NCBI GenBank assembly: GCA_020829485.1
Contig: JAIVFU010000091.1
Coordinates: forward strand, 1 to 26,300
Reading direction: 5' to 3'
Source: Nostoc sp. CHAB 5834
Lineage (GTDB): Bacteria > Cyanobacteriota > Cyanobacteriia > Cyanobacteriales > Nostocaceae
DNA: 26,300 nt
In this document: piece by piece, positions 2,158 through 21,002 of the stretch
Position numbering within the stretch: position 1 is the first letter of the stretch
Layout of the letters: each line of letters opens with the position of its first letter
The notes under the pieces: generated by a model
Databases searched by the model: none
What the model saw: only the letters and a program-made list of their open reading frames with translations
What the model was told of the DNA's origin: nothing
Made by a program: the position numbers and the translations under genes

Positions 2158-2324
2158 TGCTTCTAGGTGGTGGGTTTCAGAGCAAGCACTGATAGCGCCG
2201 GCGGCAAGCGAGTCCGCTCCTGCGTCGCGTCTTGCAAGTTTGAATTGTTTTGACATTTGGATCATGGATAACTGCAACCGCCTTGATGGTCAACCGTCTG
2301 GGAATACAAATTGCCTGCTTTAAA

Positions 2325-3660: not shown

Positions 3661-3669
3661 CAGAAAAAT

Positions 3670-4350: not shown

Positions 4351-4360
4351 AGAGTGAATT

Positions 4361-5000: not shown

Positions 5001-5227
5001 GTGGAGCTACCGTTGGGACAAGAATCTGTCGATAGAACTAGGAAAATAATTCATGTTGATATGGATGCTTTTTACGCATCGGTGGAACAGCGGGACAACC
5101 CTAGCTACCGAGGAAAACCGTTAGTAGTCGGTGGCAGCCCGAATCAGCGAGGCGTAGTTGCAGCAGCCAGTTATGAAGCGAGGAAATTTGGGATTCACTC
5201 CGCGATGCCGTCAGTAACTGCGTTCAC
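5001..5227 (+). pseudogene. dinB: DNA polymerase IV (DinB) N-terminal fragment
   Basis: From a GTG start the frame encodes the beginning of a Y-family translesion polymerase: [18 protein letters not shown] (metal-binding Asp residues of the palm), then [30 protein letters not shown]. These are the first ~75 residues of a family usually 340-420 long. Homology stops at SVTA, directly before a MITE at 5228. The palm, thumb and little-finger remainder is not found on the other side of the MITE, so this is a truncated remnant and not a simple insertion. In the ORF the frame continues into the MITE and stops at 5297. Confidence 0.85.
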
Positions 5228-5350
5228 TAGACCTCTTGCAAAAATATATTTTTCCAACAGAGGGAAAAGAATAAAGGTTAAAGGGGAAGGATTATGAGTT
5301 TCTTTACCCTTTTCCCCTTCACCTTTACCCCGACTTTTGCAAGAAGTCTA
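5228..5350. mobile_element. MITE of ~120 bp with TA duplication
   Basis: Terminal inverted repeats AGACCTCTTGCAAAA (5229-5243) and TTTTGCAAGAAGTCT (5335-5349) match at 14 of 15 positions and are bounded by TA on each side, the target duplication expected for IS630/Tc1-mariner-type elements. The interior is itself imperfectly palindromic (AAAGGTTAAAGGGGAAGG against CCTTTTCCCCTTCACCTTT), so the element could fold into one long hairpin. It encodes no transposase and must be mobilised in trans. It abuts the broken dinB gene. Confidence 0.75.
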
Positions 5351-5480: not shown

Positions 5481-6533
5481 TTAGCTGAACCCGGTAACTC
5501 CCGGAATTTCAAGGACAAAATCTGCCCCATATACGGATGCAGGAGTCTGGAATCCTACCTTAACTTCGCCTTCAATCACCCGTTTGATAACTGCTACAGC
5601 CGCCAACGCCGTAAAATCGTATGCTTCCGGCCCTAAGAGCTTTGCAGTTACTTGTTGACCAGTTTCATCCTCAGCAATACCAATTACTCTAACTTGCCCC
5701 TTGGCTCGTTCTGCCGCCGTTGGCCCAGTGGGTAGAGTTTTAATTAGATTTGCTAAAGCACTTTGGAATAAAGACGAGTTAAATAACCATTCCAAATACT
5801 GGCTCGACTCCATCAAGAAGCGCACAGGATTAGGAAATACGGTATAAACCTCAATATTAGGAATACCCGTACTTTGGAAAGCAGTGATAATATCAGCACG
5901 CCAAGGGTTTGTTACTGCTGTCACGGGCCCATAACCAAAATCAACTTTACGTCTTTTCGATGCTGGGCGAGATGGGATGAGCTTACCTGCTTCTCGGACT
6001 ACCCCGATATGATGTAAAGTTGGCAGTACTGTATTTGCAGTTCCCTGAGATACACCGCCCATTGTTTCATAGATTAAAATCAGTCGCGTTGCAACTGCTA
6101 ATTTCTGTTTGAGATAAGCAGCTACACAATCAGTAGGGACAACTCCAAATCCCACACCAGGGAGAAGCATTATCCCTGCACTTTTAGCCTCAGCATCTCG
6201 TGCTTGTAGCGCCTGAAATTCAGGTACTTCGCCAGCTATGTCTAAATAATGAGTTTTAGTTTGCAGGCAAGCATCGACAAGTGGCTTTGAGGTTTTGGAG
6301 AAAGGCCCGGAGCAGTTGATGACAGCAATTATATCCTCAAGAGAGCTAGCGATCGCTTGCGAATCGTCTAAGCCAAAAACCCGAAAGTCCAAACTTAATT
6401 CCTTGGCTACTGCTGCTAGTGAACTTTGATTACGTCCAGCTAAAATTAATTCCAGTCCATTATTTTTAGCAGATTCAGCAATGAGTTTTCCAGCATAGCC
6501 AGTTGCACCATACAATAACACCCTTGATGTCAT
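5481..6533 (-). CDS. Saccharopine-dehydrogenase-like / trans-acting enoyl-reductase-type NAD(P) oxidoreductase
   Basis: The chosen ATG (6533) is preceded by GGTGA; a GTG three codons upstream is an alternative. The ~350-residue protein has an N-terminal Rossmann fold with VLLYGATGYAGKLIAE (GxxGxxG-type) and AGR near residue 35, followed by the domain II typical of saccharopine-dehydrogenase-like proteins (VINCSGPFSKTSKPLVDACLQTKTHYLDIAGE). Family members include trans-acting enoyl reductases as well as many uncharacterised cyanobacterial reductases. It has no signal peptide, so it acts in the cytoplasm. It is the last gene of the leftward set, 12 bp after the ABM-domain gene, and ends at a strong terminator. 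In this context a double bond or carbonyl of an oxidised lipid is a plausible substrate (inference). Confidence 0.82.
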   Translation of the reverse strand: MTSRVLLYGATGYAGKLIAESAKNNGLELILAGRNQSSLAAVAKELSLDFRVFGLDDSQAIASSLEDIIAVINCSGPFSKTSKPLVDACLQTKTHYLDIAGEVPEFQALQARDAEAKSAGIMLLPGVGFGVVPTDCVAAYLKQKLAVATRLILIYETMGGVSQGTANTVLPTLHHIGVVREAGKLIPSRPASKRRKVDFGYGPVTAVTNPWRADIITAFQSTGIPNIEVYTVFPNPVRFLMESSQYLEWLFNSSLFQSALANLIKTLPTGPTAAERAKGQVRVIGIAEDETGQQVTAKLLGPEAYDFTALAAVAVIKRVIEGEVKVGFQTPASVYGADFVLEIPGVTGFS

Positions 6534-6545
6534 TATTATCACCAG

Positions 6546-6854
6546 CTAGGAATTGTTCGCAATCTGCTGCCATAACCTGACTTCAGGTGGTTCAACTAAA
6601 AATTGTCCTGATTTTTCGTTCAAAGCTTTAATATACGACTGCTCTAAGTGTTGAGCCAAAATTTCCTGGCTGACCCAGTTTTCATGTAACAGAAACAAAG
6701 ATGGGTCGTCAACAGATTGGTGCAAATCGTAATTAATACAACCTTCTTCTGCAAGAGTGAGAGCTATTACAGGTTGAAATTCCTGCTTGAAATTGTCTTC
6801 CAAACCTGGCTTCACTTTTAGTCGAGCGGTGACGGTTACTTTCTGATTTGACAT
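6546..6854 (-). CDS. ABM-domain (antibiotic biosynthesis monooxygenase-type) protein
   Basis: The 102-residue single-domain ferredoxin-like fold protein reads VTVTARLKVKPGLEDNFKQEF, then EEGCINYDLHQSVDDPSLFLLHENWVSQEILAQHLEQSYI, the classic ABM/YgiN pattern with its central E-N-W and H-x-x-S elements. Family members dimerise and include cofactor-free quinol monooxygenases, haem-degrading enzymes and proteins with no known activity. A good Shine-Dalgarno sequence (GAGGAA) precedes the ATG. It lies 29 bp after the lipoxygenase gene and before the saccharopine-DH-like gene, clearly in the same transcription unit. It might act on a quinol or an oxylipin. Confidence 0.85.
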   Translation of the reverse strand: MSNQKVTVTARLKVKPGLEDNFKQEFQPVIALTLAEEGCINYDLHQSVDDPSLFLLHENWVSQEILAQHLEQSYIKALNEKSGQFLVEPPEVRLWQQIANNS

Positions 6855-6883
6855 TGTGATTCCTCTTTTTTACTAAAACTAAT

Positions 6884-8524
6884 TCAAGTATTAATGCTAT
6901 TAATAATTTCTGAAGGCTTGAAGTAGTTGTAAGGTATGGGACGAGTTTGATTTCTAATGTCTATTTGCCGTTCTATTTCATGCAAATTCTGTTGAAATTG
7001 CACCACAAATTCCTGCGCCAATGGGTCGGCAAACTCCTCATCATAAAAACCCAATTTGTCATAGTGGTACGATGTTAAAATCTCAGTCCACATCACCTGG
7101 TCGGCAGCTTGTTTAAAGGGAGGAAGTATCTTCATGATAGTTTCCAAATCCACACCCTTACTTTCTGGAATTGGGTGGTAGGCTGCATAGGGCATATTGG
7201 GTACAAAAGCCATATATTCGTACTGAGAAAAATTCAAAGCAGAGTGTAGAGGAGCGCATGTGAATACTACCACACTGATGATTTCAATCAGTTGTTCTAG
7301 AGTCTCAATCTTGGCTGGCATTCCCTTCACTCTACCACCATCTTGAGCCACTAATTCTCTAGCCCAATTTTGCAACTCATAGTCGTCACTGATATCCTGT
7401 GAGGTTTTGTAATAGAGTTGCAAGTATTCAGCCACAAACTTTTCAACGGCATTCCAAATTAATATGCCATCGTCTCGGAAAGGAAAGTGCGGTAAAATTT
7501 CTGGGTCATCCGTTCGGCGACTTTTTATTAACCGAGGGAAGGTAAACTTTTCCACACTCCATTCTTCATAAACTTTTGCCACAAATCCAAGAGACTCCGC
7601 CAATGAACCTGCCATAAACTCATCAACCGGGCCTCCAGGTTGTAAAAACTGAGTGCGTCCCAAATCGTTATCAAATAGCATGAAACGGAAGTGGGGTTTT
7701 AACAGTAAAGCGATGGGATGATTTTCTGCTAGTTGCCGCGCAGTGACAATCGCGAACGGAGCCATAACTGCATGGGTATAGGCGAAATGACTACCCAATT
7801 CTTGATGATTGCCATCAGCAATTTGAACGCAGGTTTTTGCCAAAAACCAATCTAAATGGGGGTCATCTGGTGTATAAATCACGCTTTTTGCGCCAGAGTC
7901 ATGATTAATCTGGATCGCAACAGGTACTAGAGAACCACCATTAGGACTATCATTACTTTGCCAGTAAAATAGAGCTTGTGGCTTGGGAAGATACTTTTTA
8001 ACATTCTCGTAGACACCACCTTTAATATCAGATAACAAAGGATAATCTAAGAAATACAGCTTGCCTTCCTTGAGTGCTTTTTCCAAAGTAAATTCTGTAC
8101 CTGCAACCTTCTGAAAATGTGCATCTGTGACAGCAAAATTATCAGGTAATACATCAATTTTTTGGATAGCTAATGGGTTCGCTCCAGAGAGTCGTTGTTC
8201 AGCAAAACAAGAGTCTGTTTTGTAATTTTTTATGACATCGGGTTTTGGTAGGAGTGACAAAAGTTCTTCATATTCTTCCAATTCATCCAATGGGTCTAAG
8301 AAGTTTCTGGCTTTAGCAGCTAGCATATTTGGTGCAAGAGTTGCCATACTTGCCAAACGTTTAACAGTATATTCAGCCGAGAAGATTTCCTTATGAGGAA
8401 CTTTATCAATTACTGGTAGAGGAGCTAGATAATCGTAATTAAATTTGTACTCTTCTCGATTTTTATCTAGCCAATTAATTCGGACATTAACATCAGGGTC
8501 TTTCTGTGGTAAATATGGTTTCAC
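6884..8524 (-). CDS. Lipoxygenase, catalytic-domain-only
   Basis: This is an iron lipoxygenase that dioxygenates polyunsaturated fatty acids to hydroperoxides. I chose the GTG at 8524 because GGAGA lies five bases upstream; the TTG at 8536 lies on top of that site. The 546-residue protein lacks the N-terminal PLAT domain, as in other bacterial mini-lipoxygenases. Visible iron ligands are H246 and H251 (HFAYTH, HxxxxH), H427 and N431 (HSALNFSQYE). The C-terminus, TRPIPYNYFKPSEIINSINT, matches the family end except that the last residue is Thr, not the nearly invariant Ile. The position aligning with the Coffa site appears to be Gly (LQPGGPVDE, G297), which often goes with R-stereochemistry. 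There is no signal peptide. It sits 94 bp downstream of a di-haem cytochrome gene and 29 bp upstream of the ABM gene. Confidence 0.93.
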   Translation of the reverse strand: MKPYLPQKDPDVNVRINWLDKNREEYKFNYDYLAPLPVIDKVPHKEIFSAEYTVKRLASMATLAPNMLAAKARNFLDPLDELEEYEELLSLLPKPDVIKNYKTDSCFAEQRLSGANPLAIQKIDVLPDNFAVTDAHFQKVAGTEFTLEKALKEGKLYFLDYPLLSDIKGGVYENVKKYLPKPQALFYWQSNDSPNGGSLVPVAIQINHDSGAKSVIYTPDDPHLDWFLAKTCVQIADGNHQELGSHFAYTHAVMAPFAIVTARQLAENHPIALLLKPHFRFMLFDNDLGRTQFLQPGGPVDEFMAGSLAESLGFVAKVYEEWSVEKFTFPRLIKSRRTDDPEILPHFPFRDDGILIWNAVEKFVAEYLQLYYKTSQDISDDYELQNWARELVAQDGGRVKGMPAKIETLEQLIEIISVVVFTCAPLHSALNFSQYEYMAFVPNMPYAAYHPIPESKGVDLETIMKILPPFKQAADQVMWTEILTSYHYDKLGFYDEEFADPLAQEFVVQFQQNLHEIERQIDIRNQTRPIPYNYFKPSEIINSINT

Positions 8525-8617
8525 GATTATCTCCAATTCGGTTTTTGAGCGGTTGCTAATAAATGATTAACGTCAGAAAATTACTAAATCACATCAGTAT
8601 TTAGGAAACAAATTTCA

Positions 8618-10051
8618 TTACAGACTTTTCAGATACTCAATCAAGGCTTTTTTATTCTCATCAGATAAATCAGTGCCATAAATATGTCCCTGATTTGAAT
8701 TAGCAGTTACCTTGGTATCATATTTAAAACCTATAGCTTTTGCTTCATCTCCCTCAGTAATAAAGCCAACTTTTTTCGGGTCGTAGACATCATATCCCCG
8801 ATAGAAAACTTGAGGACGATTCTCTGGTTTTTCTAACAAATCTTGTAGAGATGGGACTGAACCATTATGTAAATATGGCGCTCTTAACCATAATCCATCT
8901 AGGGAAACAGATACATACCCATTGGTTTTGCGTAAGTTTTTAAAGTCCCAAGGGTAGCCATCACCAAAATGATTGTAAGTATCCGCTCCTTCTTGCGTCC
9001 ACATATCTAACCGATGGCGGTCAGTTCCCACTTCTTCCACAGGGATAACAGTACCCGTTCTTTCCCCACCAAAAGCGTGACAAGATGCACAAGTATTAGC
9101 AAAAATTTGACTTCCTTTTGCAGCCACTTGCTCATCAATAGCAAATGGATATTTAGGAGGTGGTAGTTCTTGAATAAAATCTTCTACTCGTTGTAAATCA
9201 GCTACAGGAAGTGATTTTTTGGTAGCACCGTCACCAATTGCTCCAGTTTGAACAGTTTCTGTTAGTGAAGTTTCTAACCCATCCCAATGGAGTGCAAAGC
9301 CTTTGTGCATCTTTTGATTCCAAAGAGGCATCATATCAGAGTTGCCAATAGTGTTATCTTTAGGCAATTTTAAAGTATTGAATTTTACAGGATTAAAAGG
9401 ATCAATTCGACCAGGCCCCCAGTTAGGACGAGAATCTGTCCAACTATAATCTTCTTTTTGTTGCAGCAGTGCTTTCTTAGTTTGAGGAATTAGCACATAG
9501 CGATAAAGTAAATTTTCTAACCAGGAAAGGTTGTAATTATATTTGATTTCATCAAGGATATAATCTGCTGTAAATCTCGCATCACCAGCAGTTGCACTCA
9601 AAAATCGTAAATAGCCTTGTGAATCAAACTTATTAGCAGGAGCAGCGGCCACAATTATGGGTTTATCTTTCTCTGTTTTTCTATAAGTGGCAGTATGGCA
9701 AACAGCGCAGGTTATACCAACGCGAGGGAAGCCAATGGTTTTTTTCGTAAACCCAACTGGCATTTCTTTACCCTCTTCCCATGTGATTCCCAAGGAAGTA
9801 TAACCACCTGGCCCTGGTAATTTATCAGGAAATATTCGTGGTAGTACCAGCCAAATCCAATAGGGAACACCTTGCGCTTCTTCTGTGCCAATAGAACCAT
9901 ATTTAAAGTGTTCTTCAGGCGATTCATAATATGTGGGAACCTCTCGAAAAAGGTTGTACCATCCCACATACCCAACTACACCAGCTAAAAGGATCACAAT
10001 TAAAACAATGCTTGTGATTACCCTACCTATTTTATTTTTGAGTATTGTCAT
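8618..10051 (-). CDS. Membrane-anchored di-haem cytochrome c, CCP/MauG superfamily (copy 2)
   Basis: The 477-residue protein has one N-terminal membrane anchor (residues 11-33) and no obvious cleavage site, so the catalytic part should face the periplasm or thylakoid lumen. Two c-type haem sites, CAVCH (115-119) and CASCH (321-325), lie 206 residues apart. The C-terminal half has APYLHNGSVPSLQDLL (391-406), matching the distal-haem segment of bacterial di-haem peroxidases (APYMHNGSFxTL type). A WGPGRIDPFNP box (211-221) is shared with the paralogue at 10563. Possible jobs are hydroperoxide reduction or haem-peroxidase-like rearrangement of the lipoxygenase product. It lies 94 bp before the lipoxygenase gene. 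AAGGAG lies 12 bases upstream of the ATG. Confidence 0.9.
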   Translation of the reverse strand: MTILKNKIGRVITSIVLIVILLAGVVGYVGWYNLFREVPTYYESPEEHFKYGSIGTEEAQGVPYWIWLVLPRIFPDKLPGPGGYTSLGITWEEGKEMPVGFTKKTIGFPRVGITCAVCHTATYRKTEKDKPIIVAAAPANKFDSQGYLRFLSATAGDARFTADYILDEIKYNYNLSWLENLLYRYVLIPQTKKALLQQKEDYSWTDSRPNWGPGRIDPFNPVKFNTLKLPKDNTIGNSDMMPLWNQKMHKGFALHWDGLETSLTETVQTGAIGDGATKKSLPVADLQRVEDFIQELPPPKYPFAIDEQVAAKGSQIFANTCASCHAFGGERTGTVIPVEEVGTDRHRLDMWTQEGADTYNHFGDGYPWDFKNLRKTNGYVSVSLDGLWLRAPYLHNGSVPSLQDLLEKPENRPQVFYRGYDVYDPKKVGFITEGDEAKAIGFKYDTKVTANSNQGHIYGTDLSDENKKALIEYLKSL

Positions 10052-10139
10052 GGCACTCTTTTGCTCCTTTGCAGAAGAATCTGTTTGTAGTGCAGGAATA
10101 TATCTACACTAGACTAGGGATAAAATTAGGAGAATTGCT

Positions 10140-10550
10140 TCACTGGAATTGCAGCGATTGCATTTTGCTACGCATTGCTAGAGTCAGAAGAATTAGTTCC
10201 GCTAATCCAAAAAACAGGTCTACAAAGGCAATGGATAAAAATCCTTTATCTTGCCCAAAGAAAAGCACTGCACAAATGAAAAATGTTGAGCCAAAAGCTC
10301 TTGAAGGAAATATTGATATCCAGGCAGTTGCCTGATATCGGTACGGGTCAAGTGCCCCAGGAATATAAAATGCACTAATAATAAACAACAGCATTCCCGC
10401 AGCACGAACCCAGATAATTGGCTCTGGTATATGCATTTTAAGGAACGTCAGCATTAATTCCGGAAAGAAGCAAGAAGGAATGACAAAAAGCATATTAACA
10501 ATAATGCCAAGCCAAGTAACGCGACTAAACCATTTAGCGTAATTATTCAT
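10140..10550 (-). CDS. Four-helix integral membrane protein, unknown
   Basis: The 136-residue protein has four predicted membrane helices at about residues 10-32, 46-66, 78-100 and 105-126. A strong AAAGGAGAG lies just upstream of the ATG. It sits between the two di-haem cytochrome genes, 12 bp after the upstream one and 88 bp before the next. It contains no haem-binding CxxCH and no recognisable catalytic motif. It may anchor or partner the cytochromes, or carry electrons if it binds a quinone; that is inference. I do not recognise a named family. Confidence 0.8.
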   Translation of the reverse strand: MNNYAKWFSRVTWLGIIVNMLFVIPSCFFPELMLTFLKMHIPEPIIWVRAAGMLLFIISAFYIPGALDPYRYQATAWISIFPSRAFGSTFFICAVLFFGQDKGFLSIAFVDLFFGLAELILLTLAMRSKMQSLQFQ

Positions 10551-10562
10551 TTTTCTCTCCTT

Positions 10563-12029
10563 TTAAAGCTTTTTCATGTATTCAACTAGTGCATTTTTAT
10601 CTTCTGTAGGAAGATCGGTACCATATAAATGACCACTGTTACTATTTCCAGGTTTTGTGGTATCGAACTTAAAGTATTGCTTACCGTTTTCTACACCGAC
10701 ATCAGATACAAAGCCAACTTTTGCTCTGTCAATCACATCGTAGCCACGATAGAATTCTTTAGGTCTATTTTCTGGTGTTTCTAATAAATCCCGCAAGGTG
10801 GGGACTGAGCCATTGTGCAAATAAGGGCCACGTAACCAAACACCATCAAGGGGCATATTTGCATAGCCATTCGTCTTGCGGAAATTCTTAAAGCGCCACG
10901 AATACCCTGTATACAGAGTATTTTGGTTAGACATCGTTTTGTAGGTATATGAGTCAAGACGATGAGGGTCTGTGCCAATTTCTTGAATTGGGACAACTTT
11001 GCCTGTATATGCACCACCAAAAGCATGACAACTAGCACAATTGCTTTGAAAAAGCTGTTCTCCCTTCGCTGCTATAGTTTCGTTAACTTCGTAGGGATAT
11101 TTTGGTGGTGGTAGTTCCCATAACCAATCAGCAACTCTTTGAATTCGAGGTAAATCAATCGTTGTGGGTGTGACTCCAGCGCCTAAAGCTGCACTCTTAT
11201 TTCGTTCATCAACAGAAGTATTATTACCATCCCAATGTAACTGCAATCCCTCACGGGGTTTTTGATTCCAAACTGAGGGAAAATCAGAAGTACCAATCAG
11301 TTCATCCTCACGCAATTTATCCATTGGAAAATGGAATTGAATTGCTTTATAAGGATTAAAAGTATCTACTCTTCCTGGGCCCCAATCTGGTTGTTTTTCA
11401 ACGAAATTAAGTCGAGATCCCTGATTAATTAGTGCATCTCTAGTTTGAGGAATTGCAATGAAGCGATAAAGTAATTTTTCAATGGGATTAAGACCACCAC
11501 TGATTTTTTCAATTTCTGGCAACATCCGGTTAGCAGTAAAGCGCTCATCTACACCAACTGTTGATAAAAATTTGATATATCCCTGCAAATTAACCACATT
11601 AGCAGGCATTGCCGTGATGACTTGATGTTCGCTATTAGGGGTATTTCGCAGGGTTCCTGTATGGCATACAGCACAATTCAACCCAACTCGATCAATAAAG
11701 ATTCTGCGTTGCGAAAAACCTATAGGTAAATCTTTATCAGGTTCTTTGATAAATCCTAAAGAAGTATAACCTTTTCCAGGTAATTTATCTGGGAATAATT
11801 CTGGTAAAACTTTCCAAATCCAGTAGGGGATGCCATTGATGGGTTCGCTACCGATTGAACCATATTTAAAATGGTTTTCAATATCAGCATAATCCACTGG
11901 AGAGTTAGACAAAACAGGCCAAAGGAAAAATACTGCTACTGCTATAATACCTACAATTACAACCCAAATTCGCTGGAATACTCCCTTGATTGAGGTTGGA
12001 AGTAGGGTAGGGTTTGTTTGTTCAGTCAT
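10563..12029 (-). CDS. Membrane-anchored di-haem cytochrome c, CCP/MauG superfamily (copy 1)
   Basis: The 488-residue paralogue of the cytochrome at 8618 has a membrane anchor at residues 20-41, CAVCH at 119-123, CASCH at 331-335, WGPGRVDTFNP at 216-226 and GPYLHNGSVPTLRDLL at 401-416. The haem spacing is 212 residues. The two copies align over their whole length, for example KTNGY, FYRGYDV, KVGF and HLYGTDL against HIYGTDL, so they arose by duplication, but they are clearly diverged and may serve different steps. GGGGAG lies six bases before the ATG. It is preceded by the flavin-reductase gene (66 bp, with an intercistronic hairpin) and followed after 12 bp by the small membrane-protein gene. 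Confidence 0.9.
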   Translation of the reverse strand: MTEQTNPTLLPTSIKGVFQRIWVVIVGIIAVAVFFLWPVLSNSPVDYADIENHFKYGSIGSEPINGIPYWIWKVLPELFPDKLPGKGYTSLGFIKEPDKDLPIGFSQRRIFIDRVGLNCAVCHTGTLRNTPNSEHQVITAMPANVVNLQGYIKFLSTVGVDERFTANRMLPEIEKISGGLNPIEKLLYRFIAIPQTRDALINQGSRLNFVEKQPDWGPGRVDTFNPYKAIQFHFPMDKLREDELIGTSDFPSVWNQKPREGLQLHWDGNNTSVDERNKSAALGAGVTPTTIDLPRIQRVADWLWELPPPKYPYEVNETIAAKGEQLFQSNCASCHAFGGAYTGKVVPIQEIGTDPHRLDSYTYKTMSNQNTLYTGYSWRFKNFRKTNGYANMPLDGVWLRGPYLHNGSVPTLRDLLETPENRPKEFYRGYDVIDRAKVGFVSDVGVENGKQYFKFDTTKPGNSNSGHLYGTDLPTEDKNALVEYMKKL

Positions 12030-12073
12030 GAAACACTCCCCATATTGTCGAGATTATTTGTAAGCGAAATTGT

Positions 12074-12090
12074 CGATGCGATCCGCATCG
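12074..12090. promoter_or_regulatory. Intercistronic hairpin between flavin reductase and cytochrome genes
   Basis: CGATGCG (12074-12080) and CGCATCG (12084-12090) form a perfect 7-bp stem with a 3-nt loop, just after the flavin-reductase stop codon. On the leftward transcript no U-run follows, so it is more likely an mRNA-stability or processing element than a terminator. On the + strand a T-run does follow, but no rightward gene ends there. Confidence 0.45.
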
Positions 12091-12095
12091 CTTTT

Positions 12096-13490
12096 TTATC
12101 TAGATAAATTTGCCAACTGAGTTTCATGAAAGACTGACATTACTTCTTCCATCATCTCTTGATAACTATTGAAGCGATCCTGCTCGTAACAACCCAAGGG
12201 ATTTTCAATTACATTCAGCAGACATTTATTGCAATAAGTACAGGGTTTATCTGCTAGGTCTTTACCTGCTTGAAAAGATTTAACTAGGTCATTATTAGCA
12301 ATTAGAGTACGAGCCATTGTTACCCCATCACAATAATGATCATTTATTGCCTGACGAATATAAGAAGCTTGCTGTAAACCACCTGTACATAATACGGGAA
12401 TATTAACGTGCTTTTTAATTTCTCTGGAATCTAGTAAGTTTCTGCCTTGGTTCTCTATTAGTAGCTGCTTAATTTTCGGGTCTTTTACATCATCACCGCT
12501 AAATGCTTGAGGAGGCAATTGCTTTTTCACGCGATTCCATAAAAAATTGAAAATTGGATGCAAAAATGCTTTACGAAATAAAATGTAATTACGTGTGGTT
12601 TCGACTCCACTCGACAACATGGCATCATAAGTTCTAGTAATGACATCAAAATTAAAATCACCAATGGGATTGAGTGGGTGAGGAAATAAGCTACCAGTTG
12701 ACACATGGACGGCATCAGCCCCAGCTTCTTCTGCCCATTGACAAACTTGGATGGAATCTTCTATGGTATTACCTGGTTTTTCCCAAAAGGTAACGGCGTT
12801 ATTATAGTCAACGGCACTAATTTTGAATTGCAGATGAAAGTCGTTGCCTACTTCTTTGCGGATTGCTCTAATTACATCTAGCAAAAACCGCGCTCGATTC
12901 TCTAATGAACCACCATATTCATCTTGACGGTCGTTAATTCCAGAACTGAGAAATTGATTAAAAAGATATCCATTAGCACTGTGCAATTCTACTCCGTCCA
13001 AACCTGCCTCACGGGCACGTCTAGCACCATCGGCAAAGTATTGGATTGTTTCTTTAATCTCTGTTAGTGTCATCGCTTGACACAAAAAACCGTGGAATGG
13101 CTCAGTTTGGCTAGTGGAACTTAAGGCTTTTTTTCCTAAGTTTTCTACACCACCAATATCTTGCTGTCGCCCCGAATGACTTAATTGCAAAATAAATTTA
13201 CAGTCATATTCATGGACTCTTTCTCCTACTTTTCGCCAAAAAGGAATACGCTCATCACAGTTAATGGTAGCGTAATTGGGCATAATTCTTCCCCGGATGG
13301 CGACTGGGACAAAGGAACTAATAATCGCTCCTACACCACCACGAGCAAACTTTTCTTCCCAGTTGATTCGGGCTTGAGTACCTGAACCATCATAGTTATC
13401 CCATCTGCCAGAAATACTAGAGCGAAATATCCGATTTTTTACTGTGAGATTACGGAATCTCAATGGTTCAAAGATAATATCGTTTTCCAT
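12096..13490 (-). CDS. Old-yellow-enzyme / dienoyl-CoA-reductase-type NADH:flavin oxidoreductase
   Basis: The ATG at 13490 is preferred; an upstream TTG adds 11 residues without a ribosome site. The ~464-residue protein has an FMN-binding TIM barrel: FEPLRFRNLTVKNRIFRSSISG at the start, LQLSHSGRQ, and GVELHSANGYLFNQFLSSGINDRQDEYGGSLENR (about 166-200), the family signature with the active-site His. Near the C-terminus C417, C420, C423 and C434 (CTYCNKC followed by LGC) match the 4Fe-4S site of the 2,4-dienoyl-CoA reductase branch. Between VHVSTGS and IPVLCTGG it carries an insertion of about 50 residues with a hydrophobic stretch (YILFRKAFLHPIFNFLW). Such enzymes reduce activated C=C bonds, as in 12-oxophytodienoate or dienoyl-CoA. 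It is the first gene of the leftward set. Confidence 0.9.
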   Translation of the reverse strand: MENDIIFEPLRFRNLTVKNRIFRSSISGRWDNYDGSGTQARINWEEKFARGGVGAIISSFVPVAIRGRIMPNYATINCDERIPFWRKVGERVHEYDCKFILQLSHSGRQQDIGGVENLGKKALSSTSQTEPFHGFLCQAMTLTEIKETIQYFADGARRAREAGLDGVELHSANGYLFNQFLSSGINDRQDEYGGSLENRARFLLDVIRAIRKEVGNDFHLQFKISAVDYNNAVTFWEKPGNTIEDSIQVCQWAEEAGADAVHVSTGSLFPHPLNPIGDFNFDVITRTYDAMLSSGVETTRNYILFRKAFLHPIFNFLWNRVKKQLPPQAFSGDDVKDPKIKQLLIENQGRNLLDSREIKKHVNIPVLCTGGLQQASYIRQAINDHYCDGVTMARTLIANNDLVKSFQAGKDLADKPCTYCNKCLLNVIENPLGCYEQDRFNSYQEMMEEVMSVFHETQLANLSR

Positions 13491-13565
13491 GTGTTTCTCT
13501 GTCTTTATATATTGTTTCGGCAATAAAATTAGGTGTCAAAATTATTCGTAGCACTAACAGTCTCG

Positions 13566-13595
13566 CCAGAGAACTATTTTTTCTAGTGTCTCTGG
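13566..13595. promoter_or_regulatory. Leader hairpin upstream of the flavin-reductase gene
   Basis: CCAGAGAACTA pairs with TAGTGTCTCTGG around a TTTTTTC loop (two mismatched bases). It lies about 75 bases before the start of the leftward gene set, so it may be in its 5' leader and affect attenuation or stability. A T-run on the + strand side (TAGTTTTTTA) could also make it a rightward terminator, but no rightward gene ends there. Confidence 0.4.
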
Positions 13596-13856
13596 GAGAG
13601 TAGTTTTTTATGTCTACAAATCTACAGTGGAGGTTTTCGGATGGGAGCGCTAAGTATTAAGTTTTTGTTACTTAAATTTACTTAACCAGTTTCAGCATGG
13701 ATATTTATCCTTATTGGTTTTTACAGTTATATAAAGACTTTTACAATTTGTAAACCTACGGGATTTACAGAGCAATTCTTAAAAAAAGTGAAAATTTCCG
13801 TCTTTTATTTCTCTTAAAAGGTTAAGGCTACCTTAAAAGTAGCTAAAAGTAGCTGC

Positions 13857-13920
13857 TAACAATTTGTTACAAACTTAACCAAGTAGGTAGGAAATCGATA
13901 TAACTATAACAAATTGGTTA
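13857..13920. promoter_or_regulatory. Paired palindromic operator candidates
   Basis: TAACAATTTGTTA (13857-13869) is a perfect 13-bp palindrome and TAACAAATTGGTTA (13907-13920) is a near-perfect relative. Their centres are about 50 bp apart, close to five helical turns. Two like sites in phase within a divergent promoter suggest a dimeric repressor or activator. The regulator is not identified here. Confidence 0.4.
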
Positions 13921-13993
13921 TTGAACACCATTCTAAATTTACAATTTTTTAAATTTTTGATTTAGAAATATATAAAAGTTTATTGATGACGTT

Positions 13994-14023
13994 TTGCAAA
14001 TTTGTGTAGTAACTTTATATATA
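13994..14023 (+). promoter_or_regulatory. Candidate sigma70-type promoter for the rightward set
   Basis: TTGCAA (13994-13999) is followed, 16-18 bases later, by TATATA/TATATAA (14016-14023). It lies about 150 bases upstream of the secreted cytochrome gene. The match is only moderate and the region is AT-rich, so chance is possible. Confidence 0.3.
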
Positions 14024-14169
14024 ACGAACCTCAGTAAAGTACATTCTAAATCATCAAAATCTCCTCAGACTAAATCTGGAAAATGGGAAATTAGTGATGA
14101 AGCATTAGTGTACCTCTACAAACGTGAGGTGCAGTGGGAAAGGTTTAGGTGTTATGACCAGAGAGTTTT

Positions 14170-16179
14170 ATGAAAAAGACAAGTCTAATTTTTAAGGGCT
14201 GTCTGCTCCTCCTATTCGTGACTATGTTTATAGTCTGCGGCTTTTATGGAACGCCTACAGCTCTAGCTGATGAGTATAGTGAAATACCTACGTCCATAAG
14301 TATAGACTATTCGAGTACTGGTGTATCTGAATACCCTGATAATTGCGAGGGCATCGGTTATCTCCCAGAGTACACAAAGGAGAATTTGACAGATGCCGAG
14401 AAACGGGGTCGTTGCACTTGGTACTTATGGACTGGTGGTAATTCTAAGTACTATCGCGATTTAGCGAAGCGAACACATGGCGGTGTTGATTTGCTAAAGC
14501 TGATTGACTCGCGTATACATGACGAGCGATTGCAACGTTATGGCGCAATTAACGATCCTGGATGTGAAAAGGCGACAGCACCAGATGAATATGGTTTGTG
14601 GCTAGATAAGTGTAAAGATCCGCTCTCAACTGGCGTTATTGGGTTGCGTAAGTTTCAAAACCCCAACTTCGATCGGGCTAAATGGAACCCTGTTGAATAT
14701 GCGAAAACTTCACAAGTTGAGCCTCCCTACGTAATTGGCCAGTCCTGCGCCATCTGTCACGTAGCGTTAGATCCCCTCAATCCACCCAAAGACAAGGAAC
14801 ATCCAAAATGGGAAAACCTTGTAGCAGCATTGGGTAATCAGTACATTAAGGAAAATAAATTATTTGCATCCAGCGTTGGAGCAAATAGTTTTGTTAAGCA
14901 AGTACTTGATTCTCAAAGACCTGGAACTTCTGATACTTCTCGGATTGCCAGCGATCACATCAATAATCCGAATGCGATTAATGCCATTTTTAATTTAGGC
15001 GATCGCCCCACATATCCAGAGGTAATGAACGATGGTTCAACCAAGGATGTTAATCATATTCTCAAGGATGGTGCGGACTCTACAGGAGTGGCAAATGCCT
15101 CACTACGCGTCTACGTCAACATTGGGATGTGCGGCGATTACTGGACAAGTCTTCATGAGCCTTTATTAGGCAGAACTCCCCAAAAACCTTTTGATATCGA
15201 AAAGGCGCGGAAGGAGTGCGAAGGCTGGAGACAGACAGAAGCACGTATGGCTGATGCCGAAGCATTCTTGAAGACCATCCAGCCGATGCACCTAAAAGAT
15301 GCACCAGATGGTGAAAAGTTCTTGACTAAAGATGAAGAAGTTCTCAAACGTGGCAAACTAGTTTTTGCCAGCACTTGTGCTAGTTGCCATTCCAGCAAAA
15401 AGCCACCAGCTGCGATCGCAGCTGACCCCGAACAGGCTCAAAAATGGTACGAAGAGTCTGTACTCAGTAGTAATTTCCTCGACCACAACTTCTTGTCCGA
15501 TGACCAGCGTTATCCAGTTACTTTAATTGGTACTAATGCAGCGCGATCGCTAGGGACAAATGCCACGAAAGGGCATATTTGGGATCAGTTCTCGTCGAAG
15601 ACTTACAAAGAACTGCCTTCACCGGGTACTTTGACCCTGTACAACCCCTTCGATGAGAAAAAACCCATTGAATTTAAGATACCTGACGGCGGTTTGGGAT
15701 ATTACCGTACACCTTCACTAGTGAGCATTTGGGCAACAGCACCACTTCTTCACAACAACACACTAGGACTTTACAACGAAGATCCTTCAGTGAAAGGACG
15801 TATAGAAGCCTATACGGATGCGATAGAAAAGCTTCTGTGGCCTGAAAAGCGTGAGGGAATTATCAGCAGGACATCTCAAGATACTAAATTAGAGCTTCCC
15901 CCAGGAGATCCGAATCCGAGATTTAGGCTTCCTGTTCCGAAAGGTACACCTGTGAATTTGCTGGCAAGCATCAATATTAGAGAGGCGATTACATCTCTCA
16001 ATCTGAGTAACCTTTTCCAAGATTTGAAACCAGGCGGTGGAATTAAGGGTAAGTTAGCACGTGTGCTTTTAAGAGCTAACAAATCTCCTGACTTTGTAGA
16101 AGATGAGGGTCATTATTTTGGCTCAAATCTCCCAGATGAAGATAAGAAAGCCCTAATTGAGTTCGTGAAAACTTTCTAA
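14170..16179 (+). CDS. Secreted RoxA-like di-haem cytochrome c
   Basis: The 669-residue protein starts with a Sec signal peptide (MKKTSL..., hydrophobic core about 8-27, cleavage after ALA at 33). Haem sites are CAICH (193-197) and CASCH (403-407). In length, motif placement and spacing it resembles the rubber oxygenase RoxA (about 678 residues, CSACH and CASCH), a di-haem cytochrome that cleaves polyisoprene C=C bonds with oxygen. A distal segment, RTPSLVSIWATAPLLHNNTLGLY (513-535), is the counterpart of the peroxidase LHNG box, with Asn for Gly. Extra Cys residues (59, 82, 132, 148, 321, 350) may form disulfides. It should act in the periplasm or outside the cell. It is first in the rightward set, divergent from the lipoxygenase genes. 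A dioxygenase or peroxidase role on polyenes is inference; it may also be a plain peroxidase. Confidence 0.85.
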   Translation: MKKTSLIFKGCLLLLFVTMFIVCGFYGTPTALADEYSEIPTSISIDYSSTGVSEYPDNCEGIGYLPEYTKENLTDAEKRGRCTWYLWTGGNSKYYRDLAKRTHGGVDLLKLIDSRIHDERLQRYGAINDPGCEKATAPDEYGLWLDKCKDPLSTGVIGLRKFQNPNFDRAKWNPVEYAKTSQVEPPYVIGQSCAICHVALDPLNPPKDKEHPKWENLVAALGNQYIKENKLFASSVGANSFVKQVLDSQRPGTSDTSRIASDHINNPNAINAIFNLGDRPTYPEVMNDGSTKDVNHILKDGADSTGVANASLRVYVNIGMCGDYWTSLHEPLLGRTPQKPFDIEKARKECEGWRQTEARMADAEAFLKTIQPMHLKDAPDGEKFLTKDEEVLKRGKLVFASTCASCHSSKKPPAAIAADPEQAQKWYEESVLSSNFLDHNFLSDDQRYPVTLIGTNAARSLGTNATKGHIWDQFSSKTYKELPSPGTLTLYNPFDEKKPIEFKIPDGGLGYYRTPSLVSIWATAPLLHNNTLGLYNEDPSVKGRIEAYTDAIEKLLWPEKREGIISRTSQDTKLELPPGDPNPRFRLPVPKGTPVNLLASINIREAITSLNLSNLFQDLKPGGGIKGKLARVLLRANKSPDFVEDEGHYFGSNLPDEDKKALIEFVKTF

Positions 16180-16277
16180 GTACAGCTCCCGTGTTAAATG
16201 GTAGTGTTTTAAACCCAGAGAATTCGCTACGAATTAATAAAATGTTGTACTAAGACAACTTGTCTTGATATTCTGCA

Positions 16278-16306
16278 CTCGTTCCCAGATTAAATCTGGG
16301 AACGAG
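16278..16306. repeat. Long perfect palindrome, terminator-like
   Basis: CTCGTTCCCAGATT (16278-16291) and its exact complement (16293-16306) flank one central base, and six A's follow. It resembles the CGTTCCCAG...CTGGGAACG repeat that recurs in Nostoc-type genomes. It lies between the cytochrome and hydrolase genes. On the + strand no U-run follows, so it probably does not stop the transcript but could give partial termination or processing. Confidence 0.6.
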
Positions 16307-16340
16307 AAAAAATATTGATTAAATAACAAGGATATATATT

Positions 16341-17813
16341 ATGCAGTATTTACCAATCGTCTTCGTTCGTGGATATGCAGGTACACAAAAAGACGTTGAG
16401 CAAACAGTCAACGATCCCTTTTATGGATTCAATAGTGGTTCAACCCATATTCGAGTGGATGAGAAGGAAAATCCTCAGAAGTTTTTTTTCGAGAGTCCAT
16501 TACTGCGGCTAATGACCGATCATGGTTATCAACCGATTGTTGACAATCAGAATGTGAGCAATCAGATTAAAAGATTGTCCGCTCAACTTCATAAAACTAT
16601 TTGGATCTATAGATTTTATGATATATCTACACCTAGTTTTGGCTCCTCAAGTGTAGTCCGACAGGAGATGGAGGAGATAGCTAAGGGTTTAAAAAACCTG
16701 ATCCAGAATGTCAAAAAAACGACGGGTGCTGATAAAATTTATCTTGTCGCCCACTCGATGGGAGGTCTTGTTTGTCGCAGCTTGATTCAAAAGATTTATC
16801 CAGAACAAGGCGAGCAAGCTGCCGATAGCATTGACAAATTCTTTACCTACGCTACACCTCATGGCGGTATTTATTTTGAGATTGGGAGTGGCTTGCTAGA
16901 AAATCTGAGGGACAAGTTTCAATTGAATAATTCTGATGACTTTGGCCCTCAGCGGATGTATCAGTATTTAACACCTGATATCAAGCCAACGACTGAGTTA
17001 CCCGAAGACTTTCAGCTAGAAAAACTACAAAGTATAGAGAATGCTTTTTCGCCAGACCGCGTTTTTTCTTTGATCGGCACTAATGCACATGATTATGAAG
17101 AAGCTTTTGGTTTTTCACGTAAGTTTGTGGGAGTGAAAAGTGATGGTCTAGTTCAGATTGATAAAGCTTATATCGCGGGATCTCATCGTGCTTATGTTCA
17201 TCGATCTCATGGCGGACGTTATGGCATATTGAACTCCGAAGAAGGTTATCAAAACCTGCAACGATTTTTGTTTGGTGATATTCAGGTGAAACTGTCTCTG
17301 AGCAATGTTGAGTTACAAGACCTGGACAAGAATTTTTATCAACTGGAAACTAGGGTAGCTTTGCGTGGTCTTCCTATTCCTATATATGAGCAAGCGATCG
17401 CTCATTATTGCCCAATTACACAAGAGTTAACCCGAACAGATAAACCTGTTCCCCTATTTACAGCTTTCTTAATTCCAAGAAACTCAGCCAGTGATGATAA
17501 TACCTGTAGATATGCTCTGCGTTTAGCACTACATTCATTCACAAAACAAGAGACAAATTGGTTACGTGACAGTCATCTCGACCAAGTGCCTTTGTGGTCT
17601 GACTATCTAATTACTGATGTTGCCGAATCAAATAGCACTTATGAAGCTAAATACAGTTGGAATTCTAGAGAAAAAGAGCCAGTAACAAAGTTAAATCCGA
17701 CTTCCGAATCCAGTTCAGGTGTATATGTTGCGTATGTTTCCTTACCTGAACGTGGGCAAAAAGTATTAGGAACAAATGCGGCAGTTCGCTTGGAAATTTC
17801 CCAATGGAAATAA
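16341..17813 (+). CDS. Alpha/beta-hydrolase, lipase/esterase-like
   Basis: The 490-residue protein has an alpha/beta-hydrolase domain in residues 1-310: an oxyanion-region start (IVFVRGYAGTQKD), the nucleophile elbow AHSMGG (137-142, Ser139), a PHGG turn (173-176), a likely acid in KSDGLVQID (D268) and a likely catalytic His in VHRSHGG (H290). The set-up resembles lipases that act on acyl esters. Residues 311-490 form an additional C-terminal region, beta-rich by composition, that I do not recognise. There is no signal peptide. AAGGA lies eight bases before the ATG. Following the secreted cytochrome gene by 161 bp and divergent from a lipoxygenase, it could release polyunsaturated acyl chains from membrane lipids (inference). 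Confidence 0.82.
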   Translation: MQYLPIVFVRGYAGTQKDVEQTVNDPFYGFNSGSTHIRVDEKENPQKFFFESPLLRLMTDHGYQPIVDNQNVSNQIKRLSAQLHKTIWIYRFYDISTPSFGSSSVVRQEMEEIAKGLKNLIQNVKKTTGADKIYLVAHSMGGLVCRSLIQKIYPEQGEQAADSIDKFFTYATPHGGIYFEIGSGLLENLRDKFQLNNSDDFGPQRMYQYLTPDIKPTTELPEDFQLEKLQSIENAFSPDRVFSLIGTNAHDYEEAFGFSRKFVGVKSDGLVQIDKAYIAGSHRAYVHRSHGGRYGILNSEEGYQNLQRFLFGDIQVKLSLSNVELQDLDKNFYQLETRVALRGLPIPIYEQAIAHYCPITQELTRTDKPVPLFTAFLIPRNSASDDNTCRYALRLALHSFTKQETNWLRDSHLDQVPLWSDYLITDVAESNSTYEAKYSWNSREKEPVTKLNPTSESSSGVYVAYVSLPERGQKVLGTNAAVRLEISQWK

Positions 17814-18056
17814 ATAAGTGCTTGTTGTGTAGTCAGTGATTAGTTATGGTTACTTAGCACTTTTTAATTATTCTTTTTACAGAATAATCAAGCTTAAAGA
17901 ACGTTAGATTAATAATGGCTAATAACTAATGATTCATCAAAAACATGAGTGAAAAAAACGGAAAAATAAAGCCTATGTCTAGATAATATTTCTGGATTAA
18001 CACATAGTTATTTTCACCAGATGTCTATTTATTCAAGCTGTTAATAGAGGAAAATC

Positions 18057-18848
18057 ATGCAGACTAATCGCAAACAAACGGCTCTTATTACTGGTGCATC
18101 TGGCGGCATCGGTTATGAATTCGTGAAATTATTTGCTCAAGATGGTTATAATCTTGTGTTGGTAGCTAGAAGCGTGGACAAGCTGAATGAAATCGCCGAT
18201 GAATTTAAAAAGAAATTTGGCATTGATGTCAAAGTTATTTCCAAAGATTTATCTAACCCATCAGCCCCAGAAGAAATTTTTAGGGAGCTAGAACAAGCAT
18301 CAATCAGTGTTGATGTGTTGGTGAACAATGCCGGGTTTGCTACCTACGGATTCTTTTACGAAATAGACCTGAATGCTGAAATGCAATTGCTACAGGTTAA
18401 TGTTTTATGTCTGACACATTTAACCAAGTTATTTCTCAAAGGTATGGTTAAACGGGGGTCTGGAAAAATATTAAATTTAGCTTCCACTGCTGCTTTTCAA
18501 CCGGGGCCGCTGATGGCAGTATACTACGCTAGTAAAGCTTATGTCCTATCGTTTTCAGAAGCGATCGCTAATGAGTTAGAAGGTACAGGTGTCTCGGTAA
18601 CGGCGCTTTGTCCAGGCCCTACTGAATCTGGTTTTCAACAAAGAGCCGCAATGGAAGACTCAAAGTTGGTAAGCGGTCAAAAAATTATGACTGCGGAAAC
18701 AGTAGCTCAAATCGGTTATCGTGGTCTATTTGAAAACAAAACTGTTATAATTCCCGGAATTAAAAATAAGCTACTCGCTGAATCTGTAAGATTTACTCCC
18801 AGAAAGCTAGTGACTAAACTAGTCAGAAGTATGCAGGAAAGCAAGTAG
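18057..18848 (+). CDS. Short-chain dehydrogenase/reductase (SDR)
   Basis: The 263-residue classical SDR has TGASGGIG (12-19), VARS after beta-2, NNAG (90-93), the catalytic Ser in NLAST (S143) and YxxxK (Y156/K160 in VYYASK), then PGPTES. It belongs to the group often annotated as DltE-like or SDR of the 17-beta-HSD/ketoreductase kind. AGAGGA precedes the ATG. It lies 243 bp after the hydrolase gene in the same direction. That gap is AT-rich with only a weak hairpin (about 17868-17890), so it may have its own promoter. Oxidation or reduction of hydroxy/keto lipids would suit the neighbourhood, but the substrate is not shown by the sequence. Confidence 0.88.
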   Translation: MQTNRKQTALITGASGGIGYEFVKLFAQDGYNLVLVARSVDKLNEIADEFKKKFGIDVKVISKDLSNPSAPEEIFRELEQASISVDVLVNNAGFATYGFFYEIDLNAEMQLLQVNVLCLTHLTKLFLKGMVKRGSGKILNLASTAAFQPGPLMAVYYASKAYVLSFSEAIANELEGTGVSVTALCPGPTESGFQQRAAMEDSKLVSGQKIMTAETVAQIGYRGLFENKTVIIPGIKNKLLAESVRFTPRKLVTKLVRSMQESK

Positions 18849-19192: not shown

Positions 19193-21002
19193 AACACCGA
19201 TTCATTAATCGTAAGAGCAGGTAAAAATCAAGTTGATTAGAAGTGGATACGGAAAGATAAAATCTGTAAAAAGCTTAATAAATAAGGATTATAACCAGTA
19301 GCGAGCGAAAGAGACATCAAATAGAAGTCGAAAGGAATAAAATACCAGGATTTCAGGTATATTTGATGTAAGGTAAGTGAGATAATACAGGAAATATACG
19401 TATGCGTCCTGAATATTGGCATCCACCACAAGAACTAAATGCATTAGAACAAAATATAGTCAAACGCATAAAAAGAGCAAAGCTATTTACATTTTTGAGA
19501 GAAATTCGTCATCAAATATTTAATGATGGATTTCAAGAGGAACTAAATAAACTTTATGCAGACACAAATAAAGGAAAACCACCAGTTCCACCAGCAAAAA
19601 TAGCATTGGTGACTATCTTGCAAGCTTATACAGGAGCATCAGATGCAGAAGCAATAGAAGCATTAATTATGGATAGAAGGTGGCAATTAGTGCTGGATTG
19701 CCTGGATTGTGAACAAGCACCATTTTCGCAAGCAACATTAGTGAGATTTCGGAGTGCGCTAATTATTCAAGGTCTTGACCGGAGATTAATTGAAAGAACA
19801 GTAGAACTAGCAGAAAAAACTCAAGGTTTTGGTTCAAGACAGTTACGAGCAGCACTGGATTCAAGTCCCTTATGGGGAGCATCAAAAGTAGAAGATACAT
19901 ATAATTTAATGGGACACGCACTCAAAAAAGCGATAGGCGTGATATCAAATCAACAGGGTAGGGGGTTGATAGAAATTGTCCAGTAAATAGGAGTAGACAT
20001 CATTGCTGGTTCTAGCTTGAAAGCAGCATTAGACTTAAATTGGGATGACCCAGAACAAAAAAAATTAGCATTGAATATTGTGCTTGATGCCTTAGAGCGA
20101 GTAGAAACTTTTGTGCAAGCACAGCCAAAAGAAACAGAACATCCTGTGGTTAATTCTTGTATGGAAACAGCAAGAAAAATTGAACTACAGGATGTAGAGA
20201 TTGATGAAAATGGTAAAAAGAAACTACGTTCAGGTGTAGCCAAAGAAAGACGTATTTCTATCGAAGATGAAGATATGAGACATGGGCGCAAAAGTCGTAG
20301 TCAGAAGATAGATGGCTATAAACGTCATGTTCTCAGAGATTTAGATAATGGACTAATTCGCGCCGTGGGAATTACTAAAGCCAATGCTCCAGAAGCATCA
20401 GTAACTGACAGTATTGAAGAGGATTTAAAAACGCAAGATATCAAACTATCTGAATTGCACATTGACCGGGCTTATTTAAGTAGCAAGTTAGTGAAAAATC
20501 GCCCATTAGAATTGACAATCTATTGTAAGGCTTGGCGTGTTCAAAATGGGATAAAGTTTAGTAAAAATGCATTTGTTTTGGATTGGGAGCATGGTACTAT
20601 TTCCTGCCCTAATCAAGTAACTTTACCTTTTACTGTCGGTGGTAAAGTTCAATTTCCACAGGAACTTTGTGCAAGTTGTCCTTTGAAAGACTCTTGCACA
20701 ATTTCACCACGCGGACGCAGTATTTCTATTCATGCAGAAGAAAAATTATTTCAAGAATTACGAGAACGTCAGCTAACTTCTATTGGTCGTGCCAAGCTTC
20801 GAGAACGTGTCAGTGTTGAGCATTCTTTATCTCATATTGGTCGATGGCAAGGTCAACAAGCTCGTTACGTTGGTTGTCGCAAAAATTTATTTGATCTTCG
20901 TCGTACTGCCGTTGTTCATAATCTTCATATCCTTGCTAAAATTTTTACTTCCTCTACTGAGTCTGCCACTGCTTTTCTCTGATTAATGAATCGGTGTTCT
21001 AG
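19189..21002. mobile_element. IS1182-type insertion sequence (1806 bp) with CTAG flanks
   Basis: Perfect 18-bp terminal inverted repeats, AACACCGATTCATTAATC (19193-19210) and GATTAATGAATCGGTGTT (20981-20998), are each bounded outside by CTAG (19189-19192 and 20999-21002), the apparent 4-bp target duplication. One rightward transposase gene fills most of the element, with a 209-bp non-coding left end. The duplication suggests a genuine insertion. The flanks, however, belong to different genes (radC on the left, an unrelated rightward gene on the right). Confidence 0.88.
19402..20982 (+). pseudogene. IS1182-family transposase with an in-frame stop
   Basis: Two stretches in the same frame (19402-19986 and 19987-20982) form one ~526-codon DDE transposase interrupted only by TAA at 19984-19986. 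The N-terminal half has the DUF772-like region, PPAKIALVTILQAYTGASDAEA, and a likely first catalytic Asp in ALDSSPLWG (D153). The C-terminal half has a likely second Asp (LHIDRAYLSS), a CASCPLKDSC zinc-like knuckle and the likely Glu (RVSVEHSLSHIGRWQGQQARYVG). The junction reads IEIVQ-stop-IGVDIIAGSSLKAALD, so one substitution such as CAA to TAA explains the loss. Unless the stop is read through, this copy is inactive, though it could be moved in trans. Confidence 0.88.

Follow-up and report, generated by a model that had tools for sequence, protein, structure and literature searches.

The 26,300-nucleotide stretch of Nostoc sp. CHAB 5834 analyzed here (contig JAIVFU010000091.1, positions 1 to 26,300; hereafter the window) carries ten genes that include a lipoxygenase (LOX), three di-haem cytochromes (CYT1, CYT2, and CYT3), a hydrophobic membrane protein (TM4), and an ene-reductase of the old yellow enzyme type (OYE). 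With moderate confidence, we read this set as one version of a cyanobacterial module that processes oxidised fatty acids and is built from a conserved core and exchangeable front ends. The constant part is not the LOX: the core comprises OYE-CYT2-TM4-CYT1 together with a divergent CYT3 and, often, a short-chain dehydrogenase (SDR; SDRb in the window). The exchangeable front ends at this core are a dioxygenase, either a LOX of the module type or a plant-type alpha-dioxygenase (alpha-DOX), and a lipid hydrolase, which can be the alpha/beta hydrolase of the window (ABH), a patatin, or another alpha/beta hydrolase. Individual LOX and alpha-DOX enzymes have been described from cyanobacteria; for the steps after the hydroperoxide the module supplies concrete candidate enzymes, and the pairing of a single core with two unrelated dioxygenases amounts to a natural experiment.

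Distribution of the core and its front ends

We searched 388 genomes from the order, which gave matches to LOX in 151 (at 1e-20), to CYT1 in 41 (1e-60), and to CYT3 in 26 (1e-60), and examined neighbourhoods of 4-20 kb in 39 of the 41 CYT1 genomes (G327 and G029 were left out). OYE and CYT2 share a locus in at least 28 of the 388 genomes, and the order OYE-CYT2-TM4-CYT1 is kept wherever all four genes are present. Among these 28 core loci, TM4 occurs in 21, CYT3 in 18, SDRb in 8 (some loci stop short of it), and CYT1 proper in 21, the last counted by reading because the CYT1 and CYT2 queries cross-match. The core-locus tally is partly circular, as some of the front-end queries described below (PAT7, ABH5, and alpha-DOX) come from core loci; genome-wide counts are less so. 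In a phylum-wide draw, CYT2 was found in 4 of 292 genomes, each of which the order set had already included.

The initial annotation had stated that neighbourhoods with the LOX but without the cytochromes and reductase would refute its reading, and such neighbourhoods do exist: the link to the cytochromes stands for one type of LOX and fails as a rule. Intact LOX adjoins the core at 5 of the 28 loci, four of the Nostoc type (G001, G002, G003, and G245) and one in G191; a sixth, in G329, retains only LOX residues 490-550 (84% identity), and the other 22 hold no trace of it. The five adjacent genes are drawn from 34 PF00305 genes of the CYT genomes, with 0.15 expected by chance; collapsing Nostoc leaves two (P 0.007). 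By genome, any LOX co-occurs with CYT1 in 25 of 41 cases against 126 of 347 others (P 0.0035, uncorrected for kinship). A general LOX-cytochrome link was rejected, the core being absent from 18 of 18 non-module LOX loci (in L063, L064, and L071 the locus is short or the LOX lies close to an end), where partial matches were limited to an OYE at 35% (L060) and an SDR at 33% (L062); the stretches shown of two plasmid loci, L012 and L013, hold no core genes. The CYT2 tree nests G379 within Nostoc (support 89/82), yet this genome has no PF00305 gene and has therefore probably lost its LOX.

The second type of dioxygenase was found where the LOX is missing. Five LOX-less core loci (G263, G089, G165, G059, and G285) carry a gene of the animal-haem-peroxidase family 2-7 kb from the cytochromes, which accounts for 5 of the 63 places of this family in the CYT genomes, with 0.28 expected near the core. 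The G263 copy (locus L083) is a plant-type fatty-acid alpha-DOX, matching the Arabidopsis enzyme (4hhr) with 413 bits over residues 65-644, nearly full length, and COX-2 with 61 bits; the remaining four share 56-100% identity with the alpha-DOX query, which was taken from G165. Alpha-DOX is present in 35 of the 388 genomes, in 9 of 41 with CYT1 and 26 of 347 without (Fisher P 0.006), and 5 of the 9 copies in CYT1 genomes adjoin the core, as against 0.043 expected under uniform placement. On the CYT2 tree the five reduce to about three lineages, for which P is 1.3e-5. None of these probabilities is corrected for kinship, and the gene families were chosen once they had been noticed at the loci. 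In G036, G350, and G272 the core contig ends nearby, so that adjacency was not judged; the contig ends of G036 and G350 hint at further, uncounted cases. A P450 gene stands between the SDR and the alpha-DOX in L080, with a 97% copy in the same order in L082.

Lipid hydrolases vary as well. Patatins (PF01734) lie near the core at 3 of 77 places in the CYT1 genomes (0.32 expected): in G321, 67 bp behind CYT1; in G191, directly behind the LOX; and in G140. PAT7, a membrane protein with a patatin-like domain, occurs in five core loci, although its assignment is uneven, since of the four copies scanned one passes the Pfam cut-off, two fall below it, and one has no patatin match. ABH5, an alpha/beta-hydrolase-like protein with a nucleophile-elbow motif by eye and no Pfam or NCBIfam match, occurs in six core loci; 24 core genomes hold 15 such genes (fragments merged), six of them adjacent. 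Twenty LOX-only control loci (354 kb) contain none of alpha-DOX, the L080-type P450, the two patatins, ABH5, or ABH. Altogether, a dioxygenase (the remnant included) or a hydrolase is found at 19 of the 28 core loci. The oxidised-lipid role first proposed from the window thus gains support from genomes without the module LOX, in which alpha-DOX and phospholipase or hydrolase genes stand at the same cytochrome/OYE core. The lipase-like hydrolase, also proposed as a pathway member, fares unevenly: it has been lost in some Nostoc, and other hydrolases take its place elsewhere.

Enzymes of the module

The module LOX (6884..8536, minus strand; 213 bits to PF00305, above the cut-off) has its nearest PDB match in CspLOX2 of Cyanothece (5mef/5med, 443 bits), and alignment with that enzyme places the iron ligands H250, H255, H431, and N435. 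In CspLOX2 the carboxylate of the C-terminal Ile569 binds iron, according to the available text of PMC5437038; in the window, this Ile is replaced by Thr550 and the C-terminal carboxylate remains. The terminal Thr (...INT) is shared by the LOX of all 11 Nostoc relatives, L072, L054 (the G191 locus), and the G329 remnant. The LOX of 25 other genomes (46-54% identity) and an Acaryochloris plasmid copy end in Ile, Val, or Met; among more distant LOX the last residue is Ile, except for the Gly of L013 and L023. A Glu four residues after the second iron His in the 25 other LOX is Ala in the module LOX, and the LOX tree unites its eight module rows in a single clade (support 100/100). Because the other iron ligands are kept and the ratio of nonsynonymous to synonymous substitution (dN/dS) is 0.09-0.11, the module LOX is probably catalytically active. 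Like CspLOX2 and NpLOX2 of N. punctiforme, as far as these are described in the accessible sources, it is a mini-LOX without an N-terminal domain; unlike CspLOX2, it has Thr for the C-terminal Ile, Ala for the nearby Glu, and a cytochrome module as its gene context. NpLOX2 is given as 547 aa (PMC10177866), and its length and species suggest that the window LOX is probably its orthologue. NpLOX1 and NpLOX2 are both 13-lipoxygenases, and the hydroperoxide is higher in wounded cells, according to the part of a review available to us (PMC10487465).

CYT1 (8618..10051, minus strand) and CYT2 (10563..12029, minus strand) are membrane-anchored and pass the model of a di-haem cytochrome c peroxidase subfamily (NF040606, cut-off 150) with 188.1 and 189.8 bits, CYT2 being identified by alignment as well; the more distant CYT3 (14170..16179, plus strand), exported as judged by eye, reaches 45.2 bits and fails it. 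Two CxxCH motifs (C115-H119 and C321-H325) and the inter-haem W256 are invariant in 20 of 20 aligned sequences. Both the top sequence match and the top fold match of the cytochromes are RoxA (PDB 4b2n), at about 14% identity over the structural alignment, and by fold they are of the RoxA type. We therefore rejected the ordinary MauG/CCP class, the analogy first drawn for these proteins; the VIA-align fold listing contains no di-haem peroxidase beside the RoxA match, which does not exclude such a likeness. The NCBIfam cut-offs for RoxA, RoxB, and RoxC (900-1000 bits) are missed by far, with 62-75 bits for CYT1 and 50-72 bits for CYT2. The haem-pocket residue F317, reported as essential in RoxA (PMC4496055, seen in part), is not conserved in CYT1, where Ala271 stands at the ungapped offset from W256 (RoxA W302), a register that is assumed.

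TM4 (10140..10550, minus strand) is a 136-aa hydrophobic membrane protein without a Pfam or NCBIfam match, traced by alignments. In L099 it is fused to a di-haem cytochrome (5846-11181), directly behind a GMC oxidoreductase/alpha-beta-hydrolase gene. Seven further loci (L088-L092, L096, and L113) hold CYT1 relatives at 58-61% identity and show no OYE, CYT2 proper, or CYT3 within the part that was read. In L081, CYT3 lies within a 1225-aa open frame (1063-4740, minus strand), the first half of which has no Pfam or NCBIfam match; an alpha-DOX domain considered for this ORF was rejected, as Pfam returned nothing and NCBIfam only cytochrome matches in the C-terminal part.

OYE (12096..13523, minus strand) combines an FMN barrel (PF00724, 217.7 bits; alignment) with a CxxCxxC...C cluster motif, the four Cys of which (C428, C431, C434, and C445) are invariant in 16 of 16 aligned sequences and resemble the cluster of dienoyl-CoA reductase. 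No C-terminal FAD/NAD(P)H domain was found in the protein, which ends shortly past the cluster. Because the NADPH domain is missing, we propose that electrons are probably delivered by a ferredoxin-type donor via the iron-sulphur cluster. Relatives of OYE begin at an ATG 12 codons further in than the ORF start in the window.

A proposed route and its alternatives

Because two unrelated fatty-acid dioxygenases adjoin one core, the arrangement suggests that fatty-acid hydroperoxides or their products feed the core; the simplest substrate common to the LOX and alpha-DOX versions would be a hydroperoxide of this type or one of its aldehyde or ketone products. Every chemical step of the following route is our inference; what was observed is that the genes are conserved, that the core is joined by one or other of two dioxygenases, that the module LOX is a clade apart, and that the cytochromes have the RoxA fold. 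The TM4-cytochrome fusion of L099 and the precedent of PA2077/PA2078, described below, also speak for the route. The hydrolase would free an acyl chain, from which the dioxygenase would form a hydroperoxide: a 13-hydroperoxide if the LOX corresponds to NpLOX2, or a 2-hydroperoxide and then an aldehyde in the case of alpha-DOX. The product would cross the membrane, where one or more of the RoxA-like di-haem enzymes, with TM4 as a membrane partner, may isomerise, cleave, or further oxygenate it. The resulting enone or carbonyl would then be reduced by OYE, probably ferredoxin-fed through its iron-sulphur cluster, and by the SDR. If this is true, RoxA-like di-haem chemistry reaches beyond rubber and P. 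aeruginosa oleate, and an ene-reductase fed via an iron-sulphur cluster is predicted.

The closest known enzymes are PA2077 (10S-DOX) and PA2078 (7,10-DS) of P. aeruginosa, the oleate diol synthase termed 'FadCcp' in the part of PMC4496055 available. Like CYT1 and CYT2, they are two RoxA-like di-haem proteins encoded together, and they act on fatty acids and hydroperoxides; CYT1 and CYT2 display the features of this type, namely two CxxCH motifs, likeness to RoxA, and the inter-haem Trp common to RoxA and PA2077. Compared by published description, the module differs in that its cytochromes are accompanied by OYE, a membrane protein, and a distinct dioxygenase (LOX or alpha-DOX); the haem-motif spacing is 206 in CYT1 versus 245 and 235, and RoxA F301 is His in the module and Gln in PA2077/PA2078. 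RoxA shares with CYT1 and CYT2 the two CxxCH motifs, the inter-haem Trp, and a C-terminal His ligand; unlike RoxA, the module cytochromes are membrane-anchored, lack F317, and have a different gene context. The alpha-DOX at the five cores belongs to the same family as the plant enzymes and two cyanobacterial alpha-DOX (PMC8720084, seen in part); none of the terms 'cytochrome', 'operon', 'gene cluster', and 'lipoxygenase' occurs in the main text of that paper. No description of the module appeared among the matches listed from the open-licence literature, covered by titles and abstract starts; subscription papers may say more. The assertion that no bacterial pathway of such composition is known thus holds for the composition, which we did not find described; di-haem oxylipin enzymes are already known from PA2077/PA2078, as far as the available text goes.

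Several observations weigh against a fatty-acid module. The adjacent loci are partly kin by descent, reducing to about three alpha-DOX and two intact-LOX lineages, and 9 of the 28 core loci, several of them cut by contig ends, have neither dioxygenase nor hydrolase. The alpha-DOX copy of G342 is not adjacent, and 26 of the 35 alpha-DOX genomes have no CYT1 at the cut-off. The L054 patatin, which scores 164 bits against a CBASS phospholipase model (cut-off 200), may be unrelated to the module. Finally, the cytochromes must sit outside the cytoplasm, and LOX and OYE, with no export signal by eye, appear cytoplasmic, a difficulty that the initial annotation had left out of account.

In a rival reading, the core would act by RoxA-like oxidative cleavage on an isoprenoid or some different lipid (carotenoid, hopanoid, quinone, or phytol), and the dioxygenases and hydrolases would be neighbours with a separate role. 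RoxA, the sole clear fold match, cleaves polyisoprene, most core loci lack a LOX, and the nine mentioned above lack any tallied lipid partner. We nevertheless regard this as rather unlikely, given that F317 is not kept in the ungapped register, that the scores to RoxA, RoxB, and RoxC lie far under the cut-offs, and that fatty-acid dioxygenases of two unrelated kinds stand next to the core more often than chance predicts. Detoxification, in which the di-haem proteins would reduce lipid peroxides to alcohols and OYE and SDR would clear reactive enals and ketones with no dedicated signal, agrees with the match of CYT1 and CYT2 to a peroxidase subfamily and with the general role of OYE-family enzymes, which commonly reduce reactive enals. 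It sits poorly with a peroxide-making enzyme encoded within the same gene run and with a fold match to RoxA, an oxygenase, and we hold it to be improbable. That LOX and its two companions, the small antibiotic-biosynthesis-monooxygenase-type protein ABM and the saccharopine-dehydrogenase-like reductase SacDH, were inserted by chance behind a cytochrome operon to which they are unrelated seems very unlikely: most core loci are without LOX, the 18 non-module LOX loci are without the core, and L054 is without ABM and SacDH, but Nostoc and G191 retain the link and G329 a remnant of it, the module LOX is set apart as a clade that shares a C-terminal change, and alpha-DOX recurs at the same core.

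A bolder version of the fatty-acid module is a separately evolved bacterial octadecanoid (jasmonate-like) pathway, through which Nostoc, when wounded or in symbiosis, would make a cyclic or ketol oxylipin for signalling or defence; we consider this distinctly improbable. Here the LOX or alpha-DOX hydroperoxide would pass to RoxA-like di-haem enzymes in place of a P450 or catalase-like synthase, an ABM- or SnoaL-fold small protein would serve as cyclase or isomerase, and the iron-sulphur OYE would replace 12-oxophytodienoate reductase (OPR). The plant jasmonate route (LOX, allene oxide synthase, cyclase, OPR) resembles the module in its succession of lipase, LOX, haem enzyme, and OYE-type reductase; it differs in that the module has RoxA-like di-haem proteins for the P450, an iron-sulphur OYE without the FAD/NAD domain, and at most a candidate cyclase. 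L054 carries two SnoaL-like (polyketide-cyclase family) genes at 7918-8895, between CYT1 and LOX and followed by the patatin, so that a cyclase step stays possible; Nostoc has none at this position, and among the loci scanned SnoaL-like genes occur only in L054.

Layout of the window and flanking genes

All ten ORFs called by the initial annotation are intact at the positions it gave, seven leftward (5481-13523) and three rightward (14170-18848), although its title omitted the seventh leftward gene, TM4. Gaps of 3, 29, 81, 88, 12, and 66 bp separate the leftward genes, sizes compatible with one operon, and the divergent gap measures 646 bp. Promoter-like matches (32 versus 34.2 expected, standard deviation 6.9) and terminator-like matches (13 versus 10.7, standard deviation 4.1) are at chance level. 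The proposal that the genes form a unit is borne out. The window belongs to a genome of the Nostoc punctiforme-like kind. Eleven Nostoc relatives, with LOX at 92-98% identity to the window, conserve the gene order as far as each locus extends (L002 and L007 are short), the exceptions being the absence of ABH from L008 and L009, a 29-residue ABH remnant in L010, and a split CYT3 in L005. Between the window and L011, dN/dS is 0.06-0.19 across all ten genes, which places them under purifying selection.

The accessory genes follow a narrower pattern. SacDH (5481..6542, minus strand; PF03435, 47.9 bits) and ABM (6546..6854, minus strand; PF03992, 64 bits) are confined, within the core loci that were read, to Nostoc and to G329, where ABM is whole, SacDH is truncated, and both lie next to the LOX remnant; this distribution does not bear out the general role first given to the reductase. 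ABH (16341..17813, plus strand), with weak DUF676, PGAP1, and lipase matches, is shared by Nostoc and G379, and SDRb (18057..18848, plus strand; PF00106, 161.7 bits) is often found behind CYT3.

Outside the set, a phage-integrase-type recombinase at 331-1228 (minus strand) is spread over two overlapping ORFs, an N-terminal SAM-like part and a catalytic part, and is apparently frameshifted. Between the module and an upstream SDR, a 98-aa ORF (5001-5297, plus strand) encodes the initial portion of a Y-family polymerase (IMS) domain and is probably a truncated DinB. A 595-aa protein is encoded at 21811-23598 (minus strand), with a weak, below-cut-off match to a bulb-type lectin near its C-terminus. 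Just past SDRb, an insertion sequence (IS) transposase with DUF772 and DDE domains, in two ORFs (19402-20982, plus strand), marks the right edge of the conserved block.

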